Shown here: one piece after another, positions 5,439 to 54,282 of the stretch
Numbering within the stretch: position 1 is the first letter of the stretch
Layout of the letters: the number at the start of each line of letters is the position of its first letter
Origin: Rhodobacterales bacterium
Lineage (GTDB): Bacteria > Pseudomonadota > Alphaproteobacteria > Rhodobacterales > Rhodobacteraceae
Reading direction: 5' to 3'
DNA: 64,000 bases
NCBI GenBank assembly: GCA_002748265.1
Contig: PDRY01000018.1
Location: forward strand, 62,001 to 126,000
Position numbers and translations under genes: made by a program
Notes under the pieces: model-generated
Databases searched by the model: none
Seen by the model: only the letters and a program-made list of their open reading frames with translations
What the model was told of the DNA's origin: nothing

Positions 5439-7597
<2,159 letters not shown>

Positions 7598-7711: not shown

Positions 7712-7735
7712 AAGGCTTCGACGGATGGTTCGGGG

Positions 7736-8737: not shown

Positions 8738-8773
8738 GGTTAAGTCTCCGTTGGTTGCTGAGCACCTTAAATC

Positions 8774-8794: not shown

Positions 8795-8810
8795 TACCTG
8801 ATCGTTTTGC

Positions 8811-9617: not shown

Positions 9618-9790
9618 GGGCGCACCATCCGGCGCACCCGGTCCCAAGTCCACCCTTGTTTTGGTCCTGAAGATGCGCGCCTGATAAAGGACAAAGGCCG
9701 AGGAGCGCCGCGTCACCACTTGCCCCGTTCGCCCTGCGCCTTACCTCTGGTGCGGCACATGCCCCCATCTCTGGTTCAAAGGACCGCCCC

Positions 9791-37906: not shown

Positions 37907-38212
37907 ATGCTGACTTTGCGCTGCCCTTATTGCGGGGTCCAATGCGATGAAACCGAGCTGGCCCCCGGAGGCGAAGCCCACCTGACCCGGCGCGGGCCGG
38001 AGGCGGATGCCGACGCCTTTGAGGCCTACCTGTTCCTGCGCCAGAACCCGATGGGAATCCATGCCGAACGCTGGCGCCACGCCTATGGCTGCGGCAAGTG
38101 GTTCCACGCCCTGCGCAACACCGTGACGCTGGAGGTCTACGGCACCTATCCGGCCCAAACGCTGGAGCCGCCAGCCGATCTTCTGGCCGCCGCGAAAGGA
38201 GACGCCGCATGA
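37907..38212 (+). CDS. soxD: sarcosine oxidase, delta subunit
   Basis: Small zinc-binding structural subunit of heterotetrameric sarcosine oxidase. The 101-residue protein has the zinc ligands in MLTLRCPYCGVQCDE (Cys6, Cys9) and the later RWRHAYGCGKWFH. It starts 103 bases after soxB, and its stop overlaps the soxA start (ATGA). Confidence 0.96.
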   Translation: MLTLRCPYCGVQCDETELAPGGEAHLTRRGPEADADAFEAYLFLRQNPMGIHAERWRHAYGCGKWFHALRNTVTLEVYGTYPAQTLEPPADLLAAAKGDAA

Positions 38213-41200
38213 GCACACGCCTGTCCCGTGGCGGCCGCCTGATCGACCGCTCCCGCAAGATCGACTTCGCTTTCAACGGCAAGCACCTGAAGGGCCATCC
38301 GGGCGACACGCTCGCCTCGGCCCTGCTGGCCGAAGACCAGATGCTGCTGGGCCGGTCGTTCAAATATCACCGCCCGCGCGGCGTGATGTCGAGCGGCGCC
38401 GAAGAGCCCAACGCCCTGTTCGGGATCGCCGATGGCGACCGGTTCGAGCCCAATCAGCGCGCCACCACCCAGGAGCTGTGGGACGGGCTTTCGGCCCGCA
38501 GTCAGAACCACTGGCCGAGCCTGAGCTTCGATGTGGGCGCGATCAACGCGCGGCTGTCGCGGTTCTTCCCGGCGGGGTTCTACTACAAGACCTTCATGTG
38601 GCCCCGTGCCGCTTGGAAACATCTGTTCGAGCCCATCGTGCGGCAATCCGCCGGTCTGGGCGCGGCCCCCGATGCGGAGGCGCGCGATCCCGATCTCTAT
38701 GAACATGCCTATGCCCATGTCGATCTGGTCATTATCGGAGGCGGCGTTGCCGGGCTCGCGGCGGCTCTGGTGGCGGGCGAGGCGGGCCAGCAGGTCTGGC
38801 TGATCGAACAGGACGCCCATTGGGGCGGCCGCGCTCCGGTCGATGGCGGGTCCATCGACGGGATGGCGCCGGGCGATTGGGTCGCGCAGGCGCTCTCCAG
38901 ACTGGAGGGTATGGAGAACGTCACCCTGCGCAATCGCTGCATGGGCGCCGGGCTTTACGATCACGGCTACCTTCTGGCCTATGAGCGGCTGACCGATCAC
39001 CTCCCAGCTGAGGCCGAGGGATCGCGCCACCGCCTGTGGCGCATCCGGGCGGGGCATATCGTCACCGCCACCGGCGCGTTGGAGCGGCCCCTGTCCTTTG
39101 CGGGCAACGACGTGCCGGGTGTGATGCTGGCCTCGGCCGTGCGCGACTACATCGTGAATTACGGCGTCAGCGTCGGTGACCGCGTTGTCGTCGTGACGAA
39201 CAATGATGACGCCTATCGCACGGCGCTTGAGGTGAAGCGCGCGGGGCTTTCGGTGCCCGCCATCGTGGATGCCCGCGCCTTGCCCGATGAGGGCCTTGTG
39301 GCCGAAGCCAAGGCGGCGGGGATCCCCGTCCATATGGGCGCTGCCATCGCCAAGGTGAAAGGTGGCGCGCGGGTCACTGGCGTTGCGCTTTGCGCGCAGG
39401 CCGGGGAAGGCACCGTCACCGAAGAGATCGCCTGCGACGTGGTGGCCATGTCGGGGGGGTGGTCTCCGGTCGTGCATTTGTGGTCCCATTGCGGGGGCAA
39501 GCTGCTGTGGGACGAGGCGCGGGCGCTGTTCCGCCCCGATCCTGACCGGCCCCCGCGCGGCGCTGAGGGGCAGGCCAGCGTGACGGCTCTGGGCGCCGCC
39601 AACGGCGCGCTGTCGCTTCATGCGATCATGGAGGATGTGCAGGTGGGTATGGGGACCATACTGGGAAGTATGCCCGACGTTCCGCGCGCGCCCGTCGAGG
39701 AAGAAGCGCCGCTTATGCCCGTGTGGATGATGCCGCAAGGCGCCAAGCACGAACTGCGCGCCAAAATGTTCCTGGATTTCCAGAACGACGTGAAAGTGTC
39801 CGACGTTCAGCTTGCTGCGCGCGAGGGCTATGAGAGCGTCGAACATACCAAGCGGTATACGACCCTTGGCATGGCGACGGATCAGGGGAAGCTGAGCAAT
39901 ATCAACGGTCTCGCAGTCCTGTCGGATGCCCTGGGCCAGCCGATCCCGCAGACCGGCACCACCACGTTCCGCCCGCCCTACACGCCCATCTCCATGGGGG
40001 CCATCGCGGGGGAGGCACGCGGGCCGCTGTTCCAGCCGATCCGGCGCACGCCGATCCATGCATGGCACGAAGAGCAGGGCGCCTATATGGAGCCCGTCGG
40101 CCAGTGGCGCCGCCCCTACAGCTATCCGCGCAGCGGCGAGAGCCTGCATGACGCGGTGATGCGCGAGGTCACCAATACCCGCGAGAATGTGGGGATGCTG
40201 GATGCCTCGACCCTCGGCAAGATCATCGTGAAGGGGCCCGATGCGGGGCGCTTCATGGATATGCTCTACACCAACATGATGAGCACGCTGAAGCCGGGCA
40301 AATGCCGCTACGGGCTGATGTGTTCGGAAAACGGCTTCCTGATGGATGACGGCGTGGTGGCGCGGCTCGATGAGGACACGTTCCTGTGCCACACGACCTC
40401 GGGCGGGGCCGCCCATGTCCACGCTCATATGGAGGAATGGCTCCAGACGGAGTGGTGGGACTGGCAGGTCTACACCGCAGATGTGACGGAGCAGTTCGCG
40501 CAAGTGGCCGTGGTCGGCCCGAAAGCGCGCGAGGTGCTGGAGGCTCTTGGCTCTGACACGGATCTGAGCGCCGAGGCCCTGCCGTTCATGGGCTGGATCG
40601 ACGCCCGGATTGGTGGCTTCGATGCGAGGATCTTCCGCATCAGCTTCTCGGGTGAGTTGAGCTTTGAGATTGCCGTGCCCGCCAGTCAGGGCCGGGCCTT
40701 CTGGGATGCGCTTTTGCGTGTCGGGGATGCGCGGGGGATCATGCCCTACGGGACCGAGGCGCTCCATATCATGCGGGCCGAAAAGGGCTTTATCATGATC
40801 GGGGACGAAACCGATGGCACCGTGATCCCGCAGGATCTGGGGCTGCACTGGGCGATCTCGAAGAAGAAGGACGACTATATCGGCAAACGCGCGCAGGCGC
40901 GATCCGACATGATCCGTACCGATCGCTGGCAGCTTGTGGGGCTTGAGACCCTGGACAAATCTGTCCTGCCCGAAGGGGCCTATGCCGTGGGCGAGGGCGT
41001 CAATTCGAACGGCCAAAAGGCCATGTTCGGGCGCGTGACATCAACCTACCATTCGCCCACGCTTGGGCGCGGGATCGCCATGGGGCTCGTGGAAAACGGC
41101 CCCGACCGCATGGGCGAGGTGATCGCGTTCGGCACGCTTGATGGTGGCACGGTGCAGGCGAAGATCGTCTCGCCCGTGTTCTTTGACCCGGAAGGAGAGA

Positions 41201-41214
41201 AGCAAAATGTCTGA
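38209..41214 (+). CDS. soxA: sarcosine oxidase, alpha subunit
   Basis: Large 1001-residue subunit. It starts with a ferredoxin-like/second-FAD region (RKIDFAFNGKHLKGHPGDTLASALL, then GRSFKYHRPRGVMSSGAEEPNA). A NAD-binding domain follows at about 200-460 (LVIIGGGVAGLAAALVAGEAG). The C-terminal aminomethyltransferase (GcvT)-like domain from about 640 binds folate and captures the methyl carbon as methylene-THF. ATG 38209 gives the conserved MSTRLSRGGRLIDRS start; the frame is open upstream inside soxD. Confidence 0.97.
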   Translation: MSTRLSRGGRLIDRSRKIDFAFNGKHLKGHPGDTLASALLAEDQMLLGRSFKYHRPRGVMSSGAEEPNALFGIADGDRFEPNQRATTQELWDGLSARSQNHWPSLSFDVGAINARLSRFFPAGFYYKTFMWPRAAWKHLFEPIVRQSAGLGAAPDAEARDPDLYEHAYAHVDLVIIGGGVAGLAAALVAGEAGQQVWLIEQDAHWGGRAPVDGGSIDGMAPGDWVAQALSRLEGMENVTLRNRCMGAGLYDHGYLLAYERLTDHLPAEAEGSRHRLWRIRAGHIVTATGALERPLSFAGNDVPGVMLASAVRDYIVNYGVSVGDRVVVVTNNDDAYRTALEVKRAGLSVPAIVDARALPDEGLVAEAKAAGIPVHMGAAIAKVKGGARVTGVALCAQAGEGTVTEEIACDVVAMSGGWSPVVHLWSHCGGKLLWDEARALFRPDPDRPPRGAEGQASVTALGAANGALSLHAIMEDVQVGMGTILGSMPDVPRAPVEEEAPLMPVWMMPQGAKHELRAKMFLDFQNDVKVSDVQLAAREGYESVEHTKRYTTLGMATDQGKLSNINGLAVLSDALGQPIPQTGTTTFRPPYTPISMGAIAGEARGPLFQPIRRTPIHAWHEEQGAYMEPVGQWRRPYSYPRSGESLHDAVMREVTNTRENVGMLDASTLGKIIVKGPDAGRFMDMLYTNMMSTLKPGKCRYGLMCSENGFLMDDGVVARLDEDTFLCHTTSGGAAHVHAHMEEWLQTEWWDWQVYTADVTEQFAQVAVVGPKAREVLEALGSDTDLSAEALPFMGWIDARIGGFDARIFRISFSGELSFEIAVPASQGRAFWDALLRVGDARGIMPYGTEALHIMRAEKGFIMIGDETDGTVIPQDLGLHWAISKKKDDYIGKRAQARSDMIRTDRWQLVGLETLDKSVLPEGAYAVGEGVNSNGQKAMFGRVTSTYHSPTLGRGIAMGLVENGPDRMGEVIAFGTLDGGTVQAKIVSPVFFDPEGEKQNV

Positions 41215-41755
41215 GGTCCTCTCAGCCCTGCCGGGCGCAACAGGCAGCGCGGACACCCGCGTGAGCGAAGCCGGACTGGTCGGTATGGTCACCCTGCGCG
41301 GCGATCTGAGCGACGCCAAGCTGCGCCAGGCGGTCTCTGACGTGACCGGCACCGCCTTCCCGGAGCAGGGCAAGATCACGTGGGATGGCGCGCGCGGGCT
41401 GGGGTGGATGTCCCCTGATGAGCTGCTGATCCTGACCGGTCACGGTGAGGCGGCGGGCGTCGTCGAGACGCTCCATACCGCCCTGGATGGTCAGCATGTC
41501 CTCGCGGTGAACGTGTCAGATGCGCGGGCCGTGTTCGATGTCGAAGGGCCGGGATGGCGCGACGTGGTGGCGCGGCTGTCCCCGATGGATCTGCGCGGCT
41601 TCAAGACCGGCGATCTGCGCCGCACGCGGTTCGGGCAGATTGCCGCTGCAGTCTGGACGACGGACGAGGAGTGCGCGCGGATCGTGTGTTTCCGCTCGGT
41701 CGCGCGCTACATGTTCGATCTACTGGAGACAGCAGCGCAGGCGGGGCGGCTCTAA
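41207..41755 (+). CDS. soxG: sarcosine oxidase, gamma subunit
   Basis: A 182-residue subunit that resembles the C-terminal part of aminomethyltransferase folds and helps form the folate channel. Recognisable segments include GLGWMSPDELLILTG, VNVSDARAVFDVEGPGWRDVVARLSPMDL and RTRFGQIAAAVW. ATG 41207, after a GGAGAG site, overlaps the soxA end by eight bases. It converges with the alcohol dehydrogenase gene 15 bases away. Confidence 0.95.
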   Translation: MSEVLSALPGATGSADTRVSEAGLVGMVTLRGDLSDAKLRQAVSDVTGTAFPEQGKITWDGARGLGWMSPDELLILTGHGEAAGVVETLHTALDGQHVLAVNVSDARAVFDVEGPGWRDVVARLSPMDLRGFKTGDLRRTRFGQIAAAVWTTDEECARIVCFRSVARYMFDLLETAAQAGRL

Positions 41756-41770
41756 GCCGCCCCAGCCGCA

Positions 41771-42916
41771 TTACATGGCCGCCTCGAACAGGGCGCGCAT
41801 GTTGTCGGCGTTCAGCTCAACCGGGTTGCCGCCGCAGGACGGATCCTCAAGTGCCATGGCGACCAGATCGTCGATGCGGTTGGTCTTCACGCCCAGATCG
41901 CTCAGGCGGCGCGGGATGGCGAAGCTGTCGTTGAACTCCTGAACGAAGCCGCGGAACCCGTCAAAGCCGCCCTTGATGCCCAGATAGCTGGCCGCACGGT
42001 CGAAGCGGTCGCGGATAACGGGCGCGTTCAGATCCAGCACGGCGGGCATGCAGACCGCATTGGTCGTGCCGTGGTGAGTGCCGAACACGGCGCCGATCGG
42101 GTGGCTCATCGCGTGGATGGCGCCAAGGCCCTTTTGGAAGGCGGTTGCGCCCATGGCAGCGGCGCTCATCATATTAGCGCGCGCGTCGATGTCGGAGCCA
42201 TCGAGATAGGCGCGGGGCAGGTTGTCGATCACCAGCCGCATCCCCTCCAGGGCGATGCCCTGGCTCATCGGGTGGTAATGCGGGCTGGAGAACGCCTCGA
42301 CGCAATGCGCGAAGGCATCAAGCCCGGTGCCCGCCGTGATCGGTTTGGGCATACCCACGGTCAGCTCGGGATCGCAGATCACAACCGTCGGCAGCACCTT
42401 GGGGTGGAAGATGATCTTCTTCACATGGGTTTGGGAATTGGTGATGACGCTGGCGCGGCCCAGCTCTGATCCGGTCCCGGCGGTGGTGGGCACGGCGATG
42501 ATCGGCGCGATGGCCTCTGCGTCTGCGCGGGTCCACCAATCGCCCACGTCTTCGAAATCCCACACCGGGCGGGTCTGCCCGGCCATGAACGCGACCATCT
42601 TGCCCAGGTCCAGCCCGGAGCCGCCGCCAAAGGCGATCACCCCGTCATGGCCCCCGGCCTTATAGGCGTCGACCCCGGCGCTCAGGTTCAGCTCATTGGG
42701 GTTGGGATCGACCTCGGAGAACAGACCGCGCCCCAGCCCGGCCTGATCGAGAATGTCGAGCGCACGGGCGGTGATATCCATCCCGGCGAGCCCCTTGTCG
42801 GTGACAAGCAGCGGTTTGGTGATGCCCGCTTGGGCACAGGCGGCGGGCAGTTCGTTGATGCGGCCCGCGCCGAACTTGATGGCGGTGGGGTAGGACCAGT
42901 TGCCGGTGAGGCTCAT
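41771..42916 (-). CDS. iron-containing (group III) alcohol dehydrogenase
   Basis: A 381-residue NAD(P)-dependent alcohol dehydrogenase. The coenzyme loop FGGGSGLDLGK and PTTAGTGSELGR are clear. Metal ligands are the Asp and His of GTGLDAFAHCVEAF and the two His residues of GAIHAMSHPIGAVFGTHHG. It is last in the TRAP/ligase/dehydrogenase operon, with its start overlapping the aldehyde dehydrogenase stop by four bases. This coupling suggests the pair carries out successive alcohol-to-aldehyde-to-acid oxidations. The exact alcohol is unknown. Confidence 0.93.
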   Translation of the reverse strand: MSLTGNWSYPTAIKFGAGRINELPAACAQAGITKPLLVTDKGLAGMDITARALDILDQAGLGRGLFSEVDPNPNELNLSAGVDAYKAGGHDGVIAFGGGSGLDLGKMVAFMAGQTRPVWDFEDVGDWWTRADAEAIAPIIAVPTTAGTGSELGRASVITNSQTHVKKIIFHPKVLPTVVICDPELTVGMPKPITAGTGLDAFAHCVEAFSSPHYHPMSQGIALEGMRLVIDNLPRAYLDGSDIDARANMMSAAAMGATAFQKGLGAIHAMSHPIGAVFGTHHGTTNAVCMPAVLDLNAPVIRDRFDRAASYLGIKGGFDGFRGFVQEFNDSFAIPRRLSDLGVKTNRIDDLVAMALEDPSCGGNPVELNADNMRALFEAAM

Positions 42917-44292
42917 GATGTCACCTTCTTGAGATGGTAGGATTTGGGTCGGGTGAGGTTGTGATAGCCGATCACGGACAGCCCGCCGCCGCGGCCGGTC
43001 TGCTTGCAACCGGTCCAGCACAGGCCGGGATCCAGATAATCGGCGCGGTTCATGAACACGGTGCCGGTCTCCAGCCGATCCCCGACGGCTTGGGCGCGGG
43101 CGATGTCCTGCGTCCAGAGCGAGGCGGTCAGCCCGAAATCGCTGTCATTCATCAGCTTGATGGCCTCTTCATCGCCCGAGACCGGCATGATGCCGACCAC
43201 GGGGCCGAAGCTCTCCTCGCGCATGACGCTCATGTCGTGGGTGACCCCGGTCAGGATCTGCGGGGTCAGGTAGGTGCCGCCATCATCCTCTTCGAAGGGC
43301 GCGATATGGGCGGTCGCGCCCGCCGCGACGGCCTCGCTGATCTGGGCGCGGACTTCGGCGGCGAAGCGGGCGTTGGCCATGGGGCCAATGGTGGTCGCGT
43401 CATCCAGAGGGTTGCCGAGCGTGTAGCCCTGCACGGTTTCAACGGCCTTTTGCACGAATGCGTCAAAGAGGCTTTCGTGGACATAGATCCGCTCAATCCC
43501 GCAGCAGCATTGGCCAGAGTTGAACATGGCGCCGTCGATCAAGGTGGCGACCGCCGCATCCAGATCGGCGTCTTCCATGACATAGCCCGGATCCTTGCCG
43601 CCCAGCTCCGTGCTGACGGGTACGAAAGTGCCCGCGGCGGCGCGCTCCATGCTCTGGCCGCCGCCGACCGAGCCGGTGAAATTGATGAAATCGAAGGCCC
43701 GCGCGCGGATCAGCGCGTCGGTCGTGTCGTGGCTCAGGAAGATGTTCTGGAACACGTCCTTGGGCACGCCGGCGGCGTGGAAGGCTTCGGCCATGCGCTC
43801 CCCGACGAGCAGCGTTTGTGTGGCGTGTTTCAGGATCACCGTATTGCCCGCGATCAGAGCCGGGGCGACGGTATTGATCGCGGTCATGTAGGGGTAGTTC
43901 CACGGCGCGACGACAAAGACGACGCCCCAGGGCGCGCGCTTGATGTAGCGGGTGAAGGTTTCATCCTCGCCCACAGAGATGTCGGCGAGGGCATCACTGG
44001 CGATGGTGGCCATGTGGCTGGCGCGCTCATGAAAGCCGCCGAATTCGCCGCCATAGCGCACGGGGCGGCCCATCATGCGGGCCAGTTCGGGCACGATCGC
44101 GTCATTCATGGCGCCCACGGCGTTGACCCCGGCCATGACCATGTCAATCCGCTCTTGCAGCGGGCGCGCAGCCCAGGCGGCTTGCGCGGCGCGGGCGCTG
44201 TCAGCCACGGCCTGAGCGTCCTCCAGCGAAAGCGCCTCGCGTTCGGCAAAGACCGATCCGTCGATCGGGGAGATACATCTGAGCACGCTCAT
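42913..44292 (-). CDS. NAD-dependent aldehyde dehydrogenase
   Basis: A 459-residue ALDH superfamily enzyme, on the short side. It has the Rossmann segment FVVAPWNYPYMTAINTV, NFTGSVGGGQSM, the catalytic Glu in STELGGKDPGYV, and the catalytic Cys in FNSGQCCCGIERI. ATG 44292 follows AGGAAAGGA. It lies between the glutamine-synthetase-like gene (34-base gap) and the alcohol dehydrogenase gene (overlap). The context suits oxidation of a gamma-glutamylated amino-aldehyde, as PuuC does in putrescine breakdown, but that is inference. Confidence 0.93.
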   Translation of the reverse strand: MSVLRCISPIDGSVFAEREALSLEDAQAVADSARAAQAAWAARPLQERIDMVMAGVNAVGAMNDAIVPELARMMGRPVRYGGEFGGFHERASHMATIASDALADISVGEDETFTRYIKRAPWGVVFVVAPWNYPYMTAINTVAPALIAGNTVILKHATQTLLVGERMAEAFHAAGVPKDVFQNIFLSHDTTDALIRARAFDFINFTGSVGGGQSMERAAAGTFVPVSTELGGKDPGYVMEDADLDAAVATLIDGAMFNSGQCCCGIERIYVHESLFDAFVQKAVETVQGYTLGNPLDDATTIGPMANARFAAEVRAQISEAVAAGATAHIAPFEEDDGGTYLTPQILTGVTHDMSVMREESFGPVVGIMPVSGDEEAIKLMNDSDFGLTASLWTQDIARAQAVGDRLETGTVFMNRADYLDPGLCWTGCKQTGRGGGLSVIGYHNLTRPKSYHLKKVTS

Positions 44293-44326
44293 GGTGCTGT
44301 CCTTTCCTCTCAGGACGCCTGCGGCG

Positions 44327-45682
44327 TCACGCTTTTTCAAACCCGCGTGCCACTTCCCAATCGGTGACGACGCGGTCAAATTCTTCGATCTCCCACCCGG
44401 CGGCGCGGGTGTAGTGATCCACCACCCAATCCCCCATGGCCGCGCGCAGCATCTTGGAGCGGCTCAGCTTTTCGCGCGCCTCGCGCAGACTGGAGGGGAT
44501 GGAGCCGGTCTTGCCCTGATAGGTGTCCCCCTTGGTCGCGGGCTGAAGCTCCAGCTTCTCCTCGATCCCGGCGATCCCGGCGGCGAGCATGGCGGCCATG
44601 GTCAGGTAGGGGTTGATGTCCGATCCCGGAACCCGGCATTCGACCCGCACGGCTTTGGTGCCATCGCCGCATAGCCGGAAGCCCGCAGTGCGGTTGTCCA
44701 CCGACCAGATCGTGCGGGTGGGGGCGAAGCTGCCCTTCTGGAATCGCTTGTAGCTGTTGATGTAGGGCGCCATGAAATAGGTGTAATCAGGTGCATATTT
44801 GAGCAGACCCGCCATGTACTGCCGCATCAGCTCGGACATGCCCAGATCGCCTTTGGGGTCGTGGAACGCGTTCTTGCCGTCCTTCCAGAGCGATTGGTGC
44901 ACATGGCTGGACGATCCCACGCGGTCGTGGTGCCATTTGGGCAGGAAGCTCGCGGCGTGGCCCTGTTGCCAGGCGATTTCCTTCACCGCGTGTTTCGCGA
45001 TGGAGTGGTAATCCGCCGTCAGCATCGCTTCGCTGTAGCGGATGTTGAGCTCTTCCTGACCGGCCTCGGCTTCGCCTTTGGAATTCTCGATCGGCAGCCC
45101 GGCGGCGTAGAGGTGATTGCGCAGAGGGCGCATCACGTGCTCTTCCTTGGTGGTCTGGAGGATGTGATAGTCCTCATTATAGCCCGAGATCGGGGCGAGA
45201 TCGCGAAAGCCGTCCTTGCGGATCTCGTCATAGCTTTTCTCGAAGAGGAAAAACTCCAGCTCCGTGGCCATCATCGGGGTGAAGCCCATGGCCTCCAGCC
45301 GGTCGATCTGGCGGCGCAGCACGGCGCGGGGGGAATGGGGGATCGGCTCGTGGCTGTGGTGGTCCAGCACGTCGCACAGCACCAGCACCGTGCCGTCCAG
45401 CCATGGCACCGGACGCAGTGTGCTCAGGTCCGGCTTCATGACGTAATCGCCATAGCCGGATTGCCACGAGGTCGCGGCGTAGCCGTCGGGCGTCGCCATT
45501 TCGAGATCCGTGGCCAGCAGATAGTTGCAGCAATGGGTTTCCTCCCACGCGCTGTCGACGAAGTGGCGGGCGTGGAACCGCTTGCCCATCAGGCGGCCCT
45601 GCATGTCGACCAGACAGGCAAGGACGGTGTCGATCTCGCCCGCGTCAACTTGGCTCTTGAGCGTGTCGAAACTCAGGGTCAT
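44327..45682 (-). CDS. glutamine-synthetase-family gamma-glutamyl-amine ligase
   Basis: A 451-residue member of the GS superfamily. It lacks the adenylylation-site and ammonia-pocket context of GlnA and resembles PuuA/GlnT-type gamma-glutamylamide ligases. ATP/metal-site motifs seen: TELEFFLFEKSYDE, EAEAGQEELNIRYSEA, GSSSHVHQSLW and DNRTAGFRLCG...VRVECRVPGSDINPYL. It should couple glutamate to an amine at the cost of ATP. Its place in an operon with a TRAP transporter, two dehydrogenases and an amidohydrolase argues for a catabolic rather than nitrogen-assimilation role. Confidence 0.88.
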   Translation of the reverse strand: MTLSFDTLKSQVDAGEIDTVLACLVDMQGRLMGKRFHARHFVDSAWEETHCCNYLLATDLEMATPDGYAATSWQSGYGDYVMKPDLSTLRPVPWLDGTVLVLCDVLDHHSHEPIPHSPRAVLRRQIDRLEAMGFTPMMATELEFFLFEKSYDEIRKDGFRDLAPISGYNEDYHILQTTKEEHVMRPLRNHLYAAGLPIENSKGEAEAGQEELNIRYSEAMLTADYHSIAKHAVKEIAWQQGHAASFLPKWHHDRVGSSSHVHQSLWKDGKNAFHDPKGDLGMSELMRQYMAGLLKYAPDYTYFMAPYINSYKRFQKGSFAPTRTIWSVDNRTAGFRLCGDGTKAVRVECRVPGSDINPYLTMAAMLAAGIAGIEEKLELQPATKGDTYQGKTGSIPSSLREAREKLSRSKMLRAAMGDWVVDHYTRAAGWEIEEFDRVVTDWEVARGFEKA

Positions 45683-45750
45683 GGGGGGCTCCCGTGTGCT
45701 GGTGTAGAGAAGGCTCCGGGCAGGGGCTCCCGCCCGGAGGAGAGGCCGTA

Positions 45751-46785
45751 TCAGCCGTAGCGGTAGGGCCGTCCGGCCTTTTGCATATCGGCGTTGTATT
45801 TCTTGATGATCTCGACGACCTTCGCCTTGGTCTCGCTCTCGGCGGCGATCTCATCCCAGAACTTGACGGCGGCGTCTTCGACCTGCGCCCATTCGGCGTC
45901 GGGGATCGAGGTCAGCTGCATCTTGTCGCCATTGACCCGCAGCGAGGCTTCGCCGCCCCAGTACCACCACTGGCGGTAGTAGTGCGACTGGTCGCAGCAG
46001 ACCCGGAACAGGGTTTGCAGGTCTTCGGGCAGCTCGTTCCAGCGGTCCATATTGGCAAAGAACGACCCGGCCCAGGCGCCGGAGATGTTGTTGGTCAGGA
46101 AGTAGTTGGTCACATCCGCCCAGCCGACGGTGTAGTCTTCGGTGATCCCGGACCAGGCGATGCCGTCCAGCTCACCGGTCTGGACCGCCACTTCGATGTC
46201 TTCCCAGGGCAGGGTGACCGGAACGACCCCGAACTGCGCCAGGAACCGGCCCGCCGTCGGGAAGGTAAAGACCCGCTTGCCCTTGAGATCCTCAAGCGAG
46301 CGGATCGGGTCTTTGGTGGCGAAATGGCACGGATCCCACGACCCGGCCGAGATGTGCTTTACCCCGACCTTGGAGTATTCGCTGTCCCAGATCTCATTGA
46401 GCCCGTACTGGTTGAACAGCACCGGCACATCGAGCGAGTAGCGCGAGGCGAACGGGAAATAGCCGCCGAACACCGTCACTTCGGTGGGGGAGGCCATGCT
46501 GTCATCGTCGGATTGCACCGCGTCGATCGTGCCGCGCTGCATGGCGCGGAACAGCTCTCCGGTGGGGACCAGCTGATCGGCAAAGAACAGCTCGATCTGC
46601 ATCCGGTCGCCGGCGATCTTGTTGAACATGTCGATGGCGGGTTTCACCACATGTTCAGCCAGAGCGGGCCCGGCATAGGTCTGCATCCGCCACTTGATCG
46701 TGCCCTGCGCAAGGGCAGGGGTGGCCAGCGGGGCTGCGGCAACGCCGAGCCCGGCGGTCTTGAGGAACTTACGTCTCGAAGTCAT
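45751..46785 (-). CDS. TRAP transporter substrate-binding protein (DctP type)
   Basis: Periplasmic receptor of a TRAP uptake system. The 344-residue protein has a Tat signal: SRRKFLKTAGLG at residues 3-14 and cleavage after ATPALA (26). The body has the family fold, with GKRVFTFPTAGRFLAQFG carrying the conserved Arg that usually binds a substrate carboxylate, and WDPCHFATKDPIRSLEDLKG. It follows the membrane subunit genes by 68 bases. The Tat signal and Trp-rich QWWYWGG segment fit the DctP subgroup for 2-oxoacid or amino-acid-like ligands; the ligand is unknown. Confidence 0.93.
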   Translation of the reverse strand: MTSRRKFLKTAGLGVAAAPLATPALAQGTIKWRMQTYAGPALAEHVVKPAIDMFNKIAGDRMQIELFFADQLVPTGELFRAMQRGTIDAVQSDDDSMASPTEVTVFGGYFPFASRYSLDVPVLFNQYGLNEIWDSEYSKVGVKHISAGSWDPCHFATKDPIRSLEDLKGKRVFTFPTAGRFLAQFGVVPVTLPWEDIEVAVQTGELDGIAWSGITEDYTVGWADVTNYFLTNNISGAWAGSFFANMDRWNELPEDLQTLFRVCCDQSHYYRQWWYWGGEASLRVNGDKMQLTSIPDAEWAQVEDAAVKFWDEIAAESETKAKVVEIIKKYNADMQKAGRPYRYG

Positions 46786-46853
46786 TTTCTGAACTCCCTT
46801 GGTTGGTGGAATGCGGCCCCCTTGAGGCGGGGCTCTTCTTGGTTAATCCGGTG

Positions 46854-48179
46854 TCAATTTTGGTAAACAACGTGGGGCAGCCACAGCGCGATCTGCGGGA
46901 AGACCATCACCAGCGTCAGCGCCAGGATCATGACCAGCACGAAGGGCAGGATGGATCCGTAGATGTCGCGCAGGGTGATTTCCGGCGGTGCCATTGCTCG
47001 CATAAGAAACAGGTTATAGCCGAAGGGCGGGGTCATGTAGGCGATCTGGGTCGTGATCGTGTAGAGCACGCCATACCAGATCAGATCGAAGCCAAGCGCC
47101 TGCACCAGCGGCACATAGAGCGGGGCCACGATCACCAGCATGGCGGTGTCGTCCAGGAACGTGCCCATGATGATAAAGCTCAGCTGCATGAGGATCAGGA
47201 TCATCCAGGGGCTCAGGCCCAGCCGCTCGGTGAACAGATCCTCAATGGCGCGCACCGCGCCGAGCCCGTCAAACACCGCGCCGAAGGCGAGCGCGGCGAG
47301 GATGATCCACATGAACATGCACGAAATGCCCAGCGTCTGACGCACCGAGGTCTCGAACACCTCGCGCGTCATGCGTCCCTTGAGCACCGCCGCCAGGAAA
47401 GCCGTCAGCGCGCCGATGGCTGAGCTTTCAACGAGCGAGGTCCAGCCATTCACGAACGGCACCATCATGGTGGCGAAGATGACCAGAGGCAGGAGGCCCG
47501 CGCGCAGCAAGGCCAGCTTTTCCGACATCGGCATGTCGCGCTCTTCGGCGCTGAGCGCCGGGCCCAGCGACGGGTTCAGGTGGCAGCGCACAGAGATGTA
47601 GATGATGAACAGCGTGGCCATCAAAAGCCCCGGCACCACCCCCGCGAGCCAAAGCTGGCCCACCGGCTGCCGAGCGATCATCGCATAGAGCACCAGCACC
47701 ACCGACGGCGGCACAAGAATGCCCAGTGACGATCCCGCCTGGATGACCCCCGTGACCATCTTCTTGTCGTAGTTGCGCTTGAGCAGCTCGGGCAGGGCGA
47801 TGGTGGCCCCGATGGCCATCCCCGCGACGGACAGGCCGTTCATGGCCGAAATCAGGACCATCAGGCCGATCGTGCCGATGGCCAACCCGCCGCGCAGCCC
47901 GCCCATCCAGACATGGAACATTTTGTAGAGATCGTCCGCGATCTTCGATTCCGACAGGACGTAGCCCATGAAGATGAACATCGGCAGCGTCAAAAGCGGA
48001 TACCATTTCATCAGCTTCATGGCGCTTGCAAAGGCCAGATCGTAGCCGCCCCGGTCTCCCCACAGCATGAGGGCTGCGATCACCGCAACGAAGCCGATGG
48101 CGCCAAACACCCGCTGCCCGGACAGCAGCAGCGCCATCATGGCGGCGAACATCATGAGGGCGATCAGTTCATACGACAT
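46854..48179 (-). CDS. TRAP transporter large permease subunit (DctM type)
   Basis: The 441-residue ion-coupled transport subunit has about 12 hydrophobic segments. Family segments: MMALLLSGQRVFGAIGF near the start, PLFIFMG-type MFIFMGYVLSES, GGLAIGTIGLMVLISAMNGLS and the second-half FLDDTAMLVIVAPLYVPL. ATG 48179 was preferred over a TTG six bases upstream. It overlaps the small subunit gene by 11 bases. It works with the small permease and the DctP-type receptor. Confidence 0.94.
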   Translation of the reverse strand: MSYELIALMMFAAMMALLLSGQRVFGAIGFVAVIAALMLWGDRGGYDLAFASAMKLMKWYPLLTLPMFIFMGYVLSESKIADDLYKMFHVWMGGLRGGLAIGTIGLMVLISAMNGLSVAGMAIGATIALPELLKRNYDKKMVTGVIQAGSSLGILVPPSVVLVLYAMIARQPVGQLWLAGVVPGLLMATLFIIYISVRCHLNPSLGPALSAEERDMPMSEKLALLRAGLLPLVIFATMMVPFVNGWTSLVESSAIGALTAFLAAVLKGRMTREVFETSVRQTLGISCMFMWIILAALAFGAVFDGLGAVRAIEDLFTERLGLSPWMILILMQLSFIIMGTFLDDTAMLVIVAPLYVPLVQALGFDLIWYGVLYTITTQIAYMTPPFGYNLFLMRAMAPPEITLRDIYGSILPFVLVMILALTLVMVFPQIALWLPHVVYQN

Positions 48180-48687
48180 CGGCAATCTCCTCGCCCCGCA
48201 GACGCAGGATGTCCTTGCACAGCTCGGACAGGGCCTGCAGCAGCATCAGGGTGATGCCGGTGCACATGATGACCTTGATCGGCCACAGATAGGGGCGCCA
48301 CGCGGTCGGGCTGCGCTCGCCCCCGTACTGGAAAGAGTAGGACGTGCTGTCGATCCCGCCCCAGAGCAGAACGCCCAGATAGAAGATCAAAAACAGCACG
48401 GTGACGCAGTCCACGGCCGCTTTGCGCCGGTCCGACCATTCGCCATAGAGCAAATCCATCCGCACATTCGATCCCATCTGGATCGAGTAGGGGCCGCCCA
48501 GGATGTAATAGGCGACCATGGCGAACTGGGCCATCTCCAGCGTCCAGAGTGACGGAGTGAAGAAGGTCTTTGAGATCGACGACCACAGCAGGATCGCCAT
48601 CATCACAAAGATCCCGTACATCGCCACGCGGCCAATCCTGTGATTGATCGCATCGACGACGCGCACGAAACGTCTGAGCGCGCTCAT
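48169..48687 (-). CDS. TRAP transporter small permease subunit (DctQ type)
   Basis: A 172-residue membrane protein with four hydrophobic segments (about 18-37, 50-66, 89-107, 133-152). The conserved ILGGPYSIQMGSNVRMDLLYGEWSDRRKAAVD fits DctQ. ATG 48687 forms an ATGA overlap with the upstream amidohydrolase stop, which puts the transporter and that enzyme in one translation unit. Confidence 0.92.
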   Translation of the reverse strand: MSALRRFVRVVDAINHRIGRVAMYGIFVMMAILLWSSISKTFFTPSLWTLEMAQFAMVAYYILGGPYSIQMGSNVRMDLLYGEWSDRRKAAVDCVTVLFLIFYLGVLLWGGIDSTSYSFQYGGERSPTAWRPYLWPIKVIMCTGITLMLLQALSELCKDILRLRGEEIADVV

Positions 48688-49448
48688 GAGCGGGGCTCCT
48701 TTCCGGGGTTGCACACGGAAAGCGCCCGCGTGAGGGTCTGCGAGAGGTGATCCGCCATCGTGTCGGCGGTCTCGGGCGTGTCGATCAGATCGTTTCGGAT
48801 CTCGATCATCAGCGCGGGCAGGCCGCGCGCGACGCCGTGCCGGGCGAGGCTGTAGGTGACCCCGTCGCTGGCGTCATAGGGTTCGTTCAGCCGCGCGGTG
48901 TAGCGGCCTGCCTCTTGCTCGGCGGCAAGCGCGGATTGGGCGAGCGCGTCGTGATCTCCGTGAAAGAGAAACCCCAGATCAAGCGCGCGCCGGGCCCCTT
49001 TGTAGATCGGCGTGAAGCTGTGAATGGTGATCAGCGCCGGGTCCGCCTTGGCGTCGATGACTTCGCTGACCGCCTCGTGAAACGGGTCGTGGATCGCCGC
49101 GCAGCGGGCTTGGCGGTCCGCGTCGCTCAGGTCGCGGTTGCCCGGGATGTCGTAGATTTCGCTGCGCGGAGGGATCGCGTCATGGGCCTCAAGCGGGCGG
49201 TTGCAATCATAGACCAGCCGCGAAACCCCGCCCGCCACCAAAGGCGCGTCCATCCGCGTCGCCAGCCCCTGCGCCACGTCAAGCGCGCCGATGTCCCAGG
49301 CGATGTGGGCCCGGCGCGCCTCTGCGTCGAGCCCGAGCCCTTTGTAGCGCTCCGGGATCAGGCGGGAGGCGTGCTCGCACACAAGCACGACCGGCGCCGC
49401 GCCCTTTGCGTTATGGATCGAGACCGGATCAAGGCCGGGCGTGGTCAT
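48684..49448 (-). CDS. N-formylglutamate amidohydrolase-like hydrolase
   Basis: A 254-residue member of the N-formylglutamate amidohydrolase (HutG-like) family, zinc-type amidases that release glutamate from N-acyl forms. Family marks: VLVCEHASRLIPERYKGLGL, HIAWDIGALDVA, LVYDCNRPLEAHDAIP, ITIHSFTPIYKG and LPALMIEIRNDLI. No hut genes are nearby. As first gene of the operon with a gamma-glutamyl ligase and two dehydrogenases, it may hydrolyse a gamma-glutamyl or N-acyl amino acid product instead. ATG 49448 starts MTTPGLDPVS; a slightly longer start is possible. Confidence 0.9.
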   Translation of the reverse strand: MTTPGLDPVSIHNAKGAAPVVLVCEHASRLIPERYKGLGLDAEARRAHIAWDIGALDVAQGLATRMDAPLVAGGVSRLVYDCNRPLEAHDAIPPRSEIYDIPGNRDLSDADRQARCAAIHDPFHEAVSEVIDAKADPALITIHSFTPIYKGARRALDLGFLFHGDHDALAQSALAAEQEAGRYTARLNEPYDASDGVTYSLARHGVARGLPALMIEIRNDLIDTPETADTMADHLSQTLTRALSVCNPGKEPRS

Positions 49449-49489
49449 GCAAGTTCTCCCCAAGGCGTCTGGATGCGCCGTTGTGAAGA

Positions 49490-49528
49490 GAAAACTACAT
49501 GAAAAAATGACATGTCAAGAAAAATACA
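49490..49528. promoter_or_regulatory. operator-like cluster between the catabolic operon and the rpiR-like gene
   Basis: The 138-base divergent region is AT-rich for this genome. GAAAACTACA (49490-49499) and GAAAAATACA (49519-49528) are direct repeats 29 bases apart that flank the perfect palindrome TGACATGTCA (49508-49517), with another GAAAAAATGACA in between. RpiR-type regulators often use GAAA-containing sites, so this is the likely control point for both directions. Confidence 0.5.
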
Positions 49529-49586
49529 TTACACTCGTCTTAACGATGGAGTTGCGTGCCGCTCAGGAAGCGGCGAGTGAGGGCGT

Positions 49587-50453
49587 ATGGAAAACGTCGC
49601 ATTGATCCGGGATTTGATCAAAGATCGTCAGGCCGACCTGACGGCGGCTGAGCGGCGTCTGACCGCTGTGCTGCTGGACGATTCGCTGGTGGCGGGGCTC
49701 AAGTCGATCACCAAGCTGGCCGAAGAGGCGGGGGTGTCGACCCCGACCGTGATCCGGCTCGCGCGCAAGCTGGGCTTCAACGGCTTTCCCGACATGCAAG
49801 AAGCCATCCGCGAAGAGATCGCCGCGCGAATGAAACAGCCTCTGGCCAAGCTGGAGACAGGCCCAATCGCGGGCCATGAAAGCCACGTGGTGAGCCGCTT
49901 TGCCTCTGCCATTTCTGACAACATCAACCGCACGATCGAACGGCTCGATCTGGCGCAGTTTGACGCCGTCGCGGCGGAGCTGTCAGACCCGGAGCGGGCG
50001 ATTCACCTGCTGGGCGGGCGTATCACGCGGTCCAACACGCATTACTTCTTCAACCACCTGCAGATCATTCGGCCCGGGGTCTCGCTGCTCGATTCCTCGC
50101 CCTCCGCATGGCCGCAATCCCTTCTGGATATGGGGCCGCGCTCGACCCTGGTGATGTTCGATATTCGCCGCTACGAAAAAGAGCTCAACCGCCTCGCAGA
50201 GCTCGCGGTCCGGCAAGGCGCGCGGATCGTACTGTTCACCGATCAATGGGGCTCCCCGATTGAGCGACACGCGGCCTATTGCTTCCGCACCATGGTCGAG
50301 GCCCCGTCGAGCTGGGATTCGACGCTGGCCATCAACTTCCTGATTGAGGCGCTCGTGGCCGAGGTGCAGCAGCGCAGCTCTGCCAGCAGCTCGGAGCGGA
50401 TCGCTTTGATGGAAGAGATGATCGGGGAAACCCGTATTTTCCGCGGAAGCTGA
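49587..50453 (+). CDS. MurR/RpiR-family transcriptional regulator
   Basis: A 288-residue regulator with an N-terminal RpiR helix-turn-helix (SITKLAEEAGVSTPTVIRLARKLGFNGFPDMQEAI at about 47-81) and a C-terminal SIS sugar-isomerase-type domain (about 120-265) for a phosphorylated or other small ligand. The SIS part reads AIHLLGGRITRSNTHYFFNHL and LVMFDIRRYEKELNRLAELAVRQGARIVLFTDQ. It lies between the leftward seven-gene operon and the rightward ABC operon (117 bases downstream), so it may control one or both. Confidence 0.93.
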   Translation: MENVALIRDLIKDRQADLTAAERRLTAVLLDDSLVAGLKSITKLAEEAGVSTPTVIRLARKLGFNGFPDMQEAIREEIAARMKQPLAKLETGPIAGHESHVVSRFASAISDNINRTIERLDLAQFDAVAAELSDPERAIHLLGGRITRSNTHYFFNHLQIIRPGVSLLDSSPSAWPQSLLDMGPRSTLVMFDIRRYEKELNRLAELAVRQGARIVLFTDQWGSPIERHAAYCFRTMVEAPSSWDSTLAINFLIEALVAEVQQRSSASSSERIALMEEMIGETRIFRGS

Positions 50454-50570
50454 CGCCAGTGGGCTCGGGCTGTCCTTTTCGACGTCACGCACGGCATTGA
50501 TGCCGAAGGCTCGGTTGGTTACAGACCCGTTACAAAAGGCGGGCTGGGGCCGCCGCTGCCGGGGATCATC

Positions 50571-52088
50571 ATGATGAATGATGCGTTGTTGACGCTGGAG
50601 GGGATCAGCAAATCCTATCCTGGTGTCACCGCCAATGACGATGTCAGCTTTTCCGTGCAGCCGGGGCAGATCCACGCGTTGCTTGGCGAAAACGGGGCCG
50701 GGAAATCGACCCTGGTCAAGACGATCTATGGGCTGGTGACGCCCGATCGCGGCGCGATGACGTTGGGCGGCGGGGCCTACCGCCCGGCCAGCCCGAGGTC
50801 GGCGCGCGCCGCCGGTGTGGCCATGGTGTTCCAGCATTTCAGCCTGTTCGACGCGCTCACCGTTGCGGAAAACATCGCTCTGGGCATGGACAACCCACCG
50901 CCCGCGCGCCTCTTGGCTGCGCGCATCCGCGAAATCAGTGAGACCTACGGCCTCCCGCTGGACCCTGATCGGCGGGTCGGCGGTCTGAGCGCCGGGGAGC
51001 GTCAGCGGGTCGAGATCCTGCGCTGCCTGCTCCAGACGCCGCGCCTGTTGATCATGGACGAGCCCACCAGCGTGCTGACCCCGCAAGAGGTGGAGATCCT
51101 CTTTCGCACCTTGCGCCAACTGGCCGATGAGGGGACCGCGATCCTCTATATCAGCCACAAGCTGGAGGAGATCCGGGCGCTGTGCGGCTCGGCCACGGTG
51201 CTGCGCCACGGGCGCGTCGTGGCCACGTGCAACCCGCGCGAGAAATCGGCGCGCGAGCTGGCCGAGATGATGGTGGGCACGCGGCTCCATACCCCCTCGC
51301 GCGAGGCGACCCCGCCGGGTCCGCCGCTGCTGGAGGTCGCGGGGCTGTCATTGCCGCCGACATCCGCCTTTGGTGCCGCGCTGACTGACCTGACCTTCAC
51401 GCTTCACAGCGGAGAGGTGCTTGGGATCGGCGGCGTGGCCGGGAACGGGCAGGACGAATTGCTGGCCGCACTGTCGGGCGAGCTGCGCGCGCCCGCCGGG
51501 GTCATCCGGCTCAAGGGGCAGGACCTCTCCACCTTCGGTCCCAACCGCCGCCGCGCTGCCGGGCTGCTCAGCGCGCCCGAAGAGCGCCTCGGCCACGCCG
51601 CCGCGCCGGACATGACCCTAAGCGAAAACGCGCTTTTGACCGGCGAGACCCGCGAGGCGCTGAGCCATCGCGGCTTTGTCCGCTGGCCCGAAGTGCGCGA
51701 TTTCGCGCGCCGCATCATTGAGCGGTTCGATGTGCGCACGCCCGGCCCGGATGTGGCCGCAGGGGCGCTTTCGGGCGGGAACCTTCAGAAATTCGTCATA
51801 GGGCGCGAGATCCTTCAGCGCCCGGAGGTCTTTGTGGTGAACCAGCCGACCTGGGGTGTCGATGCCTCGGCAGCCGCCGCGATCCGGCAGGCCTTGCTGG
51901 ATCTGGCCGCCAAAGGGGCAGGGGTCATCGTGATCAGTCAGGATCTGGATGAGCTGATGGAGATTTCGGACAGGTTCACCGCGCTCAACGCCGGGGCGCT
52001 TGCCCCGATCCGGCCCGCACGCGGCCTGAGCATGGAGGAGATCGGCCTGATGATGGGCGGCATGGGCGTGCAAGGAGAGGTGGCATGA
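50571..52088 (+). CDS. BMP-type ABC transporter ATP-binding protein (two ABC domains)
   Basis: A 505-residue duplicated ATPase of the RbsA/YufO type that powers import. The first domain has an intact Walker A (LLGENGAGKST, 38-48) and LSAGERQRVEILRCLL. The second has the degenerate GVAGNGQDELLAALSG normal for this class and LSGGNLQKFVIGREI. There is a double ATG (50571, 50574) with weak ribosome sites. Its stop overlaps the first permease gene (ATGA). Similar transporters carry nucleosides or purines. Confidence 0.93.
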   Translation: MMNDALLTLEGISKSYPGVTANDDVSFSVQPGQIHALLGENGAGKSTLVKTIYGLVTPDRGAMTLGGGAYRPASPRSARAAGVAMVFQHFSLFDALTVAENIALGMDNPPPARLLAARIREISETYGLPLDPDRRVGGLSAGERQRVEILRCLLQTPRLLIMDEPTSVLTPQEVEILFRTLRQLADEGTAILYISHKLEEIRALCGSATVLRHGRVVATCNPREKSARELAEMMVGTRLHTPSREATPPGPPLLEVAGLSLPPTSAFGAALTDLTFTLHSGEVLGIGGVAGNGQDELLAALSGELRAPAGVIRLKGQDLSTFGPNRRRAAGLLSAPEERLGHAAAPDMTLSENALLTGETREALSHRGFVRWPEVRDFARRIIERFDVRTPGPDVAAGALSGGNLQKFVIGREILQRPEVFVVNQPTWGVDASAAAAIRQALLDLAAKGAGVIVISQDLDELMEISDRFTALNAGALAPIRPARGLSMEEIGLMMGGMGVQGEVA

Positions 52089-53176
52089 GGATCGCTCTGG
52101 AGAAGCGCCCGGCGCCGTCCGGGCTGCTGTCTGCTCTGACGCCGCCGCTTGCGGTGCTGGCGACGATGCTGGCCGGGGGCGTGATGTTCTGGGCGCTCGG
52201 GATCGAGCCGCTCCTGGCGCTGCGCACGATCTTCTGGGATCCGCTGTTTCACCCCGATTTCTCGGGCTTCCTGCGCCCGCAGCTTTTGGTGAAAGCCGGG
52301 CCGTTGGTGCTGATCGCCACCGGGCTTGCGCTCGGGTTCCGGGCGGGCGTGTGGAACATCGGCGCCGAAGGGCAATACATCATGGGTGCCATCCTTGGCG
52401 CCGGGGTTGGGCTTGCCTTTTACCCCACGGAAAACCGGATGATTTTTCCGCTCATGATCCTGGCGGGGGGCTTTGGCGGCTGGCTTTGGGCGATGATCCC
52501 GGCACTGCTGAAGACGAAGCTGGGCACCAATGAAATTCTGGTCAGCCTCATGCTGGTCTATGTTGCAGAGACGATCCTGTCGGCGGTCAGCAGTGGCATC
52601 TTGCGCAATCCCGATGGCCGGGGCTTTCCCGGATCGCGCAACCTGGCGCGGGACTTCCCCGCCGCATCCAATCCCGAGCTGTTCGAAGGCACCGGGATGC
52701 ATTGGGGCGTGGTCGCGGCGCTGATCGCAGTGATCTTCGCCTATGTCCTGCTCACGCGGCACAAGATGGGCTATGCTATCCAGTTGAGCGGTCAGGCCCC
52801 GCGCGCGGCGCGGTTCGCGGGGATTTCGCCATCGCGGCTGGTGGTCTTTGTGCTGGGCACGGCGGGCGCGCTTTCGGGGCTTGCGGGGCTGTTCGAAGTC
52901 ACCGGCCCTGCCGGGCAGATCAGCAGCAATTTCGGATCGGGCTACGGCTTCACCGCAATCATCGTTGCGTTTCTGGGCCGCTTGCACCCGGTCGGCATCC
53001 TTCTGGCCGGGCTCCTGATGGCGCTGACTTATATTGGCGGAGAGCTGGCCCAGCCGCTTCTGTCGATGCCCGCCGCCGCGATCCAGCTCTTTCAGGGGAT
53101 GATGCTGTTCTTCCTTCTGGCGATGGATGTGTTTGCCAACTACCGCGTTCGGCTGATCCTGAAGGGGGCGCGCTGA
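52085..53176 (+). CDS. BMP-type ABC transporter permease 1
   Basis: A 363-residue inner-membrane permease of the YufP/NupP type with about nine or ten hydrophobic segments. GLALGFRAGVWNIGAEGQYIMGAILGAG is the conserved BPD_transp_2 segment, followed by TNEILVSLMLVYVAE and GYGFTAIIVAFLGRLHPVGILLAGLLMA. It is coupled to both neighbours: ATGA with the ATPase and TGATG with permease 2. It pairs with permease 2 as a heterodimer. Confidence 0.93.
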   Translation: MRIALEKRPAPSGLLSALTPPLAVLATMLAGGVMFWALGIEPLLALRTIFWDPLFHPDFSGFLRPQLLVKAGPLVLIATGLALGFRAGVWNIGAEGQYIMGAILGAGVGLAFYPTENRMIFPLMILAGGFGGWLWAMIPALLKTKLGTNEILVSLMLVYVAETILSAVSSGILRNPDGRGFPGSRNLARDFPAASNPELFEGTGMHWGVVAALIAVIFAYVLLTRHKMGYAIQLSGQAPRAARFAGISPSRLVVFVLGTAGALSGLAGLFEVTGPAGQISSNFGSGYGFTAIIVAFLGRLHPVGILLAGLLMALTYIGGELAQPLLSMPAAAIQLFQGMMLFFLLAMDVFANYRVRLILKGAR

Positions 53177-54282
53177 TGGATTTCGGATCAATCAACCCGG
53201 CGCTCTTGCTCGCCTCGCTCATGGTCGCCTCCACGCCGATCCTGCTGGCCGCGCTCGGAGAGCTGGTGGTCGAGAAGGCGGGCGTTTTGAACCTCGGGGT
53301 CGAGGGCATGATGATCACGGGCGCCGTTGTCGGCTTTGCCGTCGCTGTGCGCCTGGGTGATCCCGGTCTCGGCTTCGTGGCCGCGGCCGGGGCCGGGGCG
53401 GGGCTGAGCCTGATCTTTGCGCTGCTCACGCAGGTCCTGATGTCGAACCAAGTGGCGACGGGGCTGGGGCTCACGCTGTTCGGGCTGGGGCTTTCCTCGC
53501 TCATCGGCAGCAGCTTCGAGGGGGAGAAAGCCCCCGGCATGGCAAAGCTCGACCTGCCGCTGTTGTCGGACCTGCCCGCTTTGGGGCCGATCCTGTTCCG
53601 CCATGACGCCATGGTCTACCTGTCGCTGCTGCTGGTGGGGCTGGTCTGGGCCGGGCTCAAATACAGCCGCGCCGGGCTGATCTTGCGGGCCGTCGGAGAG
53701 AACGCCGATGCGGCCCATGCGCTTGGCTACAAGGTGGTGCGGGTGCGGGTGCTAGCGATCGTGTTCGGCGGGGCTCTCGCCGGGCTGGGCGGCGCCTACG
53801 TCAGCCTGGTGCGGGTGCCGCAATGGGTCGACGGGCTGACCGCCGGGGCCGGGTGGATCGCGCTCGCCATCGTGGTCTTTGCCAGCTGGCGGCCCTGGCA
53901 TGTGTTGATCGGCGCCTATCTTTTCGGCGGGCTCACGGTGCTTCAGCTCAACCTTCAGGCGGCGGGGGTGCCGCTTCTGAAGGCGCTGCCGGTGATGCTG
54001 CTGGCGCTGTCTGTGGCCAGCCTTGCCTTCACGGTCATCGCGCGGCTGGTGAGCGGCCGCGGCGGGCTTCGGGCGCTTCTCCTTTGGCCTGCGCTCTTTG
54101 CCGGGCTGGCGGGCGCCGTTGCCGCTTTGGGCCAGGCGACCGGCTATCCGACCGGCGCCGACACTATGCTGTTGTCGATGAGCCCCTACCTTGTCACCAT
54201 CCTCGTGCTGGTCATCTTGTCCCTGCGCGGAGAGCACGGTGCGCCCGGATCGCTCGGGCGCAGCTTTCACCCTTCATCCTGA
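53176..54282 (+). CDS. BMP-type ABC transporter permease 2
   Basis: A 368-residue permease of the YufQ/NupQ type. The N-terminal half carries ALGELVVEKAGVLNLGVEGMMITGAVVGF and VLMSNQVATGLGLTLFGLGLSS, the family's conserved NLGVEG and GL-L-G segments. The C-terminal portion has two extra hydrophobic stretches (about 300-350) compared with permeases that end after the core. ATG 53176 overlaps the permease 1 stop by one base; an in-frame extension upstream lies inside permease 1 and is rejected. Confidence 0.93.
   Translation: MDFGSINPALLLASLMVASTPILLAALGELVVEKAGVLNLGVEGMMITGAVVGFAVAVRLGDPGLGFVAAAGAGAGLSLIFALLTQVLMSNQVATGLGLTLFGLGLSSLIGSSFEGEKAPGMAKLDLPLLSDLPALGPILFRHDAMVYLSLLLVGLVWAGLKYSRAGLILRAVGENADAAHALGYKVVRVRVLAIVFGGALAGLGGAYVSLVRVPQWVDGLTAGAGWIALAIVVFASWRPWHVLIGAYLFGGLTVLQLNLQAAGVPLLKALPVMLLALSVASLAFTVIARLVSGRGGLRALLLWPALFAGLAGAVAALGQATGYPTGADTMLLSMSPYLVTILVLVILSLRGEHGAPGSLGRSFHPSS

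Follow-up and report, generated by a model that had tools for sequence, protein, structure and literature searches.

Ethanolamine, a common lipid headgroup, is used both by the eutBC route, in which a B12-dependent lyase yields acetaldehyde, and by a pathway that runs through gamma-glutamyl intermediates. The second pathway has been described for an operon of Phaeobacter sp. MED193 (MED193_10021-10056; PMC10132767, 2023), which in the available parts of that paper comprises an RpiR regulator (10021), gamma-glutamylglycine amidohydrolase (10026), EtoV (10031), EtoW (10036), EtoX (10041), ethanolamine gamma-glutamylase (10046), gamma-glutamylacetaldehyde dehydrogenase (10051) and gamma-glutamylethanolamide dehydrogenase (10056). 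According to the same parts, EtoX binds ethanolamine (Kd 7.9 uM), five operon proteins are raised on phosphorylethanolamine (Table 2), roughly 5 to 10% of bacteria in the ocean carry etoX, and a Pho-independent phosphorylethanolamine route must exist; a demonstration in Chromohalobacter salexigens and Agrobacterium tumefaciens C58 (Vetting et al.) is cited. For Streptomyces coelicolor, the available sections of PMC6529630 propose the same four steps for SCO1611-1615, with ligase activity shown and the later steps only predicted, and credit an in silico prediction of the pathway in C. salexigens to Gerlt 2016. Here we analyzed a 64,000-nucleotide stretch of a Rhodobacterales genome (contig PDRY01000018.1; hereafter the window), in which a seven-gene operon at 41771-49448 very probably encodes ethanolamine catabolism of the Phaeobacter kind, leading via gamma-glutamyl intermediates to glycine. 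The operon and its chemistry are already known, and the window is one more clear example. An earlier reading made from the letters alone (the sequence-only reading) had implied novelty, which is not supported; the same operon is already in print for MED193.

Operon layout and predicted pathway

All seven reading frames lie on the minus strand, each running from ATG to stop with no internal stops, and all seven Pfam families scored above their own cut-offs (listed from the first transcribed gene to the last: FGase, DctQ, DctM, DctP, Gln-synt_C, Aldedh and Fe-ADH). Frame coordinates give 4-base overlaps at 48684-48687 and 42913-42916 and an 11-base overlap at 48169-48179, the remaining intergenic gaps being 68, 68 and 34 bases; on these points the sequence-only reading was exact. 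It had left out the divergently read gene at 49587-50453 (plus strand), which belongs to the unit: an RpiR/MurR-family regulator (Pfam HTH_6 3.4e-16, SIS 4.6e-16) equivalent to MED193_10021 in the legend to Fig. 5 of PMC10132767.

Based on homology, conserved residues and gene order, the pathway would proceed as follows. Ethanolamine would be captured in the periplasm by the TRAP binding protein (DctP, with a Tat-type signal, TIGR01409 over cut-off; 45751-46785, PF03480 2.3e-20), the predicted ethanolamine-binding equivalent of EtoX, and imported through the small permease DctQ (EtoV equivalent; 48169-48687, PF04290 2.8e-19) and the large permease DctM (EtoW equivalent; 46854-48179, PF06808 1.2e-65). 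A glutamine synthetase (GS)-family ligase, the predicted gamma-glutamylethanolamide synthetase (ETAGA; 44327-45682, PF00120 6.5e-99), would couple the amine to the gamma-carboxyl of glutamate in an ATP-dependent step. The iron-type alcohol dehydrogenase, the predicted gamma-glutamylethanolamide dehydrogenase (GETADH; 41771-42916, PF00465 and PF25137), would oxidize the alcohol to gamma-glutamylacetaldehyde, and the aldehyde dehydrogenase, the predicted gamma-glutamylacetaldehyde dehydrogenase (GAADDH; 42913-44292, PF00171 1.4e-116), would convert this to gamma-glutamylglycine. Finally, the FGase-family amidohydrolase, the predicted gamma-glutamylglycine amidohydrolase (GGAH; 48684-49448, PF05013 6.8e-41), would free glycine and glutamate, with glutamate recycled. 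The RpiR protein is the probable repressor of the operon.

This sequence of TRAP import, glutamylation, oxidation of alcohol to aldehyde to acid and hydrolysis to glutamate and glycine had been put forward in the sequence-only reading, is supported here, and equals the published ethanolamine route in the available parts of PMC6529630 and PMC10132767. Of the ethanolamine- or alaninol-like substrates that it offered, ethanolamine appears the best, and alaninol is kept as a low-ranked rival. We infer every step for this genome; in relatives, EtoX ethanolamine binding, GlnA4 ligase activity and protein induction on phosphorylethanolamine have been shown.

Evidence from the binding protein and enzymes

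The substrate assignment draws first on DctP, whose residues 26-343 match PDB 4uab_A at E 7.9e-196 (both 4uab and 4xf5 were matched). In the available parts of the sources, 4UAB is Csal_0678 of C. salexigens, crystallized with ethanolamine (PMC12410723), and Csal_0678 is without an equivalent of Arg-147, the arginine with which almost every TRAP binding protein in this family holds carboxylates (PMC4646407). In the window protein, Phe173 occupies the place of this arginine (alignment to 4yzz). Locus counts here and below refer to the closest 80 of 590 ligase relatives and lean high because the closest were taken; among the 64 with DctP, 55 have Phe at position 173 and nine have Tyr. The 7.9e-196 match, a phmmer E-value and not one from the paper's own profile, lies within the published profile cut-off of e-60 for closeness to Csal_0678. 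Glu216 is kept in 64/64 loci and has index 217 in the 4uab chain; as the nearest Glu, it is the likely counterpart of the acidic platform residue reported for Csal_0678 (Glu220), with a number that differs. A second DctP subtype, 64-66% identical, carries both Tyr173 and Lys171 in the same nine of 64 loci (L015, L019, L027, L047, L057, L062, L077, L081 and L082), and its ligand may differ.

The rival that survives best keeps the same chemistry and takes as main substrate another short amino-alcohol (L-alaninol, isopropanolamine or serinol), with alanine or another amino acid as product. Glutamylation is used in an isopropylamine/alaninol route (ipu), and 4xf5, a further solved structure for the sequence of the binding protein, is presumed to be an alaninol complex. 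We nevertheless regard this rival as very unlikely: ethanolamine is a common lipid headgroup, MED193 EtoX binds it, and five operon proteins of that strain rise on phosphorylethanolamine in the parts of the MED193 report available.

The ligase has PDB 5dm3 as its nearest solved relative (E 2.1e-237), an entry whose presumed source organism places it with the Chromohalobacter/Agrobacterium counterparts. It falls under the cut-offs of the GlnA, type III GS and gamma-glutamylputrescine synthetase models. Compared with Escherichia coli GlnA (in an alignment that is gapped near Y179), six metal residues are kept (E141, E143, E204, E211, H260 and E348), plus the counterparts of R321, R339 and R359, and four positions are changed (E327 to Phe319, Y179 to Phe159, S53 to Ala69 and N264 to Val255). 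Phe319, E141, E143, E204, E211, H260, R313, E348 and R350 of the ligase are identical in 80/80 loci. In the available sections of PMC6529630, the argument for GlnA4 is the same, with Phe at the E327 place and Y179 lost, and the enzyme is reported to be specific for ethanolamine (Km 0.47 mM). The window ligase shows two GlnA4-like marks, namely kept metal residues and a non-polar residue at the E327 flap. The genome also has a second GS-like ligase, on C2 (L087:7837-10547), which adjoins a DAO-family FAD oxidase and is Puu-like; it was rejected as a copy of the operon ligase given only 28% identity and this neighbor.

Active-site residues are kept in the remaining enzymes. In the iron-type alcohol dehydrogenase, D200, H204, H268 and H282 correspond by eye to the metal ligands of FucO and do not vary among the 71-72 loci aligned, and in the aldehyde dehydrogenase Cys263 is found in 75/75 and Glu229 in 76/76 aligned loci. 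E25, H26, D52, H143 and E216 of the FGase-family hydrolase are identical in 72/72 aligned loci, and a search of solved structures at E 0.01 gave a single relative, Atu2144 (PDB 2odf). There are three FGase genes in the genome: the operon copy, one 35% identical to it (C38) and one that BLAST does not match to the operon copy at 1e-5. The C38 gene was considered as the mark of a second pathway copy and rejected, its 3.6 kb of sequence showing no other operon gene.

These data bear on two further rivals, both of which we consider practically negligible. The first takes the ligase as a normal glutamine synthetase and the hydrolase as the N-formylglutamate hydrolase of the histidine pathway, with oxidoreductases unrelated to them alongside. 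It agrees with the labels at family level (PF00120 and PF05013) and with Asp66 at the ammonia-site D50, but the ligase reached 245.3 of the 429.15 bits required by the GlnA model and has Phe319 in place of E327, the GS-family gene with the best score in the genome is a different one (C2:340474, 444 bits, a score from a model other than GlnA), the hydrolase reached 21.6 bits against the HutG (TIGR02017) cut-off of 278.75, urocanase was looked for and not found in the 88%-complete genome, and the order is conserved with TRAP, aldehyde and alcohol dehydrogenase genes. A variant of the putrescine (Puu) pathway would account for a GS-like ligase and an aldehyde dehydrogenase as PuuA and PuuC (28% and 34% identical to their E. 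coli counterparts), but a PuuB-type amine oxidase is absent among the operon genes, a PuuD homolog was not found (chance matches only, E 0.88 and above), the binding protein belongs with those for ethanolamine, and the separate GS-like ligase beside the FAD oxidase fits Puu better. No similarity was seen between PuuD and the FGase protein, in line with the proposal in the sequence-only reading of a hydrolase unlike PuuD acting as its substitute.

Conservation, sister clusters and a candidate operator

The gene order is kept in related genomes, a check suggested by the sequence-only reading: 56/80 loci carry the seven genes and RpiR in collinear order, so the operon is more than chance. Genes were scored as present at >=35% identity (RpiR, FGase and DctQ) or >=60% (others), at which diverged copies may escape. 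RpiR was at the equivalent place in 64/80 loci. The nearest ligase relatives are mostly from Rhodobacteraceae, and one partial locus named Halomonas (L048) has DctP, ligase, aldehyde dehydrogenase and alcohol dehydrogenase at 77-83% identity. Of the 24 loci without the full set, 11 end at a contig edge on at least one side and 13 are uncut; for L007, L023 and L061, the contig edge alone is insufficient to account for the absent genes. Five uncut loci (L004, L013, L038, L046 and L080) have the hydrolase, ligase and both dehydrogenases, with RpiR and TRAP absent, and another five (L011, L035, L040, L059 and L070) lack TRAP, with other genes missing as well in all but L040 and L059. Among the other uncut loci, the alcohol dehydrogenase was not detected in L051 and L062, nor the aldehyde dehydrogenase in L017.

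Several points weigh against assigning the operon to ethanolamine catabolism with TRAP import. The nearest NCBIfam models are 4-hydroxybutyrate dehydrogenase for the alcohol dehydrogenase and a succinic-semialdehyde type for the aldehyde dehydrogenase, and because both matches are under cut-off, these names confirm no substrate. Ligase Asp66 aligns with D50 of glutamine synthetase and is Asp in 72/80, Glu in 7/80 and Ser in 1/80 loci; since D50 is kept, ammonia use by the ligase is formally possible (a D50 that is not conserved would be a further GlnA4-like mark, but the GlnA4 residue at this place is given as D81 or D69 according to the model used, in the available sections of PMC6529630). 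DctP is absent from 16/80 loci, including 12 whose left flank is long, so TRAP import is not universal. The genome (2,785,211 bases in 56 contigs) is 88.36% complete, which weakens any absence from it. Lastly, enzyme roles are assigned here by homology, residues and gene order, and in the parts of the MED193 report available the four enzymes were not assayed singly.

Some of the loci without TRAP have phosphate-related neighbors. In L004, L011, L013 and L040 (at about 3300-9250; 4/16 loci without DctP), an inositol-monophosphatase-family gene and a Na/Pi transporter gene lie upstream of the ligase, and L004, L011 and L040, but not L013, also have a sulfatase-superfamily gene. L035 has sulfatase and phosphatase genes, with Na/Pi not detected. 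A phosphatase-family gene is found in 9/16 loci without DctP, the copy in L059 lying far downstream. For the sulfatase-like proteins of L040 and L011, the best NCBIfam model was PehA, a phosphate/sulfate ester hydrolase, under cut-off (about 450 of 900 bits). The best model for the phosphatase-family protein of L040 was HisN histidinol-phosphatase (243.3 bits versus a cut-off of 275.15), which points to another role. The Na/Pi gene occurs in 9/80 loci in all; in L014, L033, L034, L044 and L065 (at about 8230-9920), it separates DctP from the ligase, in TRAP operons that are ordinary in other respects.

One speculative scheme, which we think is rather unlikely to be right as a whole, is that the TRAP-less form cuts ethanolamine phosphoesters, moves surplus phosphate and feeds the module of ligase, aldehyde dehydrogenase and alcohol dehydrogenase, making it a candidate Pho-independent phosphorylethanolamine route, and that the TRAP form in the window is repressed by RpiR at TGTAR-N6-YTACA. 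In this scheme, we infer the link of the sister clusters to phosphorylethanolamine. Neither the TRAP-less phosphate-linked clusters (by title among the papers listed) nor the operator TGTAR-N6-YTACA for such regulators was met in the literature searched, with partial coverage in both cases.

The candidate operator was first seen in ten relatives with regulators >=50% identical to that of the window, where TGTAR-N(3-9)-YTACA is found upstream in 10/10. As the motif was derived from these ten, they are no test of it, and only a second sample counts. This sample covered 248 genomes, 117 with a match including the window's own, and 29 non-self loci were taken among the matches listed; 25 had regulators of >=50% identity, giving 24 regions after one duplicate was dropped, and a 60-base identity check is the sole guard against close kinship to the first ten. 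Exact TGTAR-N6-YTACA occurred within about 220 bases in 16/24 non-duplicate regions (L093-L117), where shuffling by single bases gave 0.007 on average, and was absent from 8/24. With regulators below 50% identity, the site was found in 0/54 regions of the first sample and 0/4 of the second. The intergenic region of the window (49449-49586) has only degenerate copies: the predicted operator with one mismatch at 49484-49499 (minus strand) and a two-mismatch copy at 49513-49528. Across the whole window, 16 matches with up to two mismatches compare with 11.0 expected, which is not significant alone. The evidence in the window alone is weak, and the case for an operator rests on the relatives. In these, the site is often just downstream of a TTGACA box (by eye), which fits a repressor.

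A promoter scan of 41600-50600 gave two sites versus 1.7 in shuffles, which is no excess, and terminator-like sites in the same span numbered 11 versus 5.0. Around the unit, sarcosine oxidase alpha- and gamma-type genes (38098-41755, plus strand) converge on the operon, the gamma-type gene being over the Pfam cut-off and under that of NCBIfam. Downstream of the regulator, an ABC ATPase and two permease-like frames (permeases by eye) occupy 50571-54282; the nearest NCBIfam model of the ATPase is a putative B6 transporter, under cut-off.

Comparison with known systems

The operon adds an example of the use of ethanolamine, a membrane lipid headgroup, in a genome where EutB was looked for and not found at 88% completeness. 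Two small points are left of interest, namely the regulator's operator and the sister clusters linked to phosphate.

Among known systems, E. coli Puu (b1296-b1302) likewise has a GS-like ligase that protects an amine with a gamma-glutamyl group, an aldehyde dehydrogenase step and glutamate release, but differs in having the oxidase PuuB where the window has an iron-type alcohol dehydrogenase, PuuD unlike the FGase-family hydrolase, and the symporter PuuP. In Chromohalobacter (Csal_0678) and Agrobacterium C58, the match extends to the binding protein (4uab), the ligase (5dm3) and the FGase-family protein (2odf, Atu2144); the comparison was of proteins, with cluster order there outside it. For the GlnA4 pathway of S. 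coelicolor the same four chemical steps are proposed, and its ligase has Phe at the E327-flap place; unlike in the window, a TRAP importer is not named in the available passage (PMC6529630). Closest is MED193_10021-10056: compared by order and annotation, not by alignment, with the available parts of PMC10132767, the window agrees with it in all eight genes and in their order.

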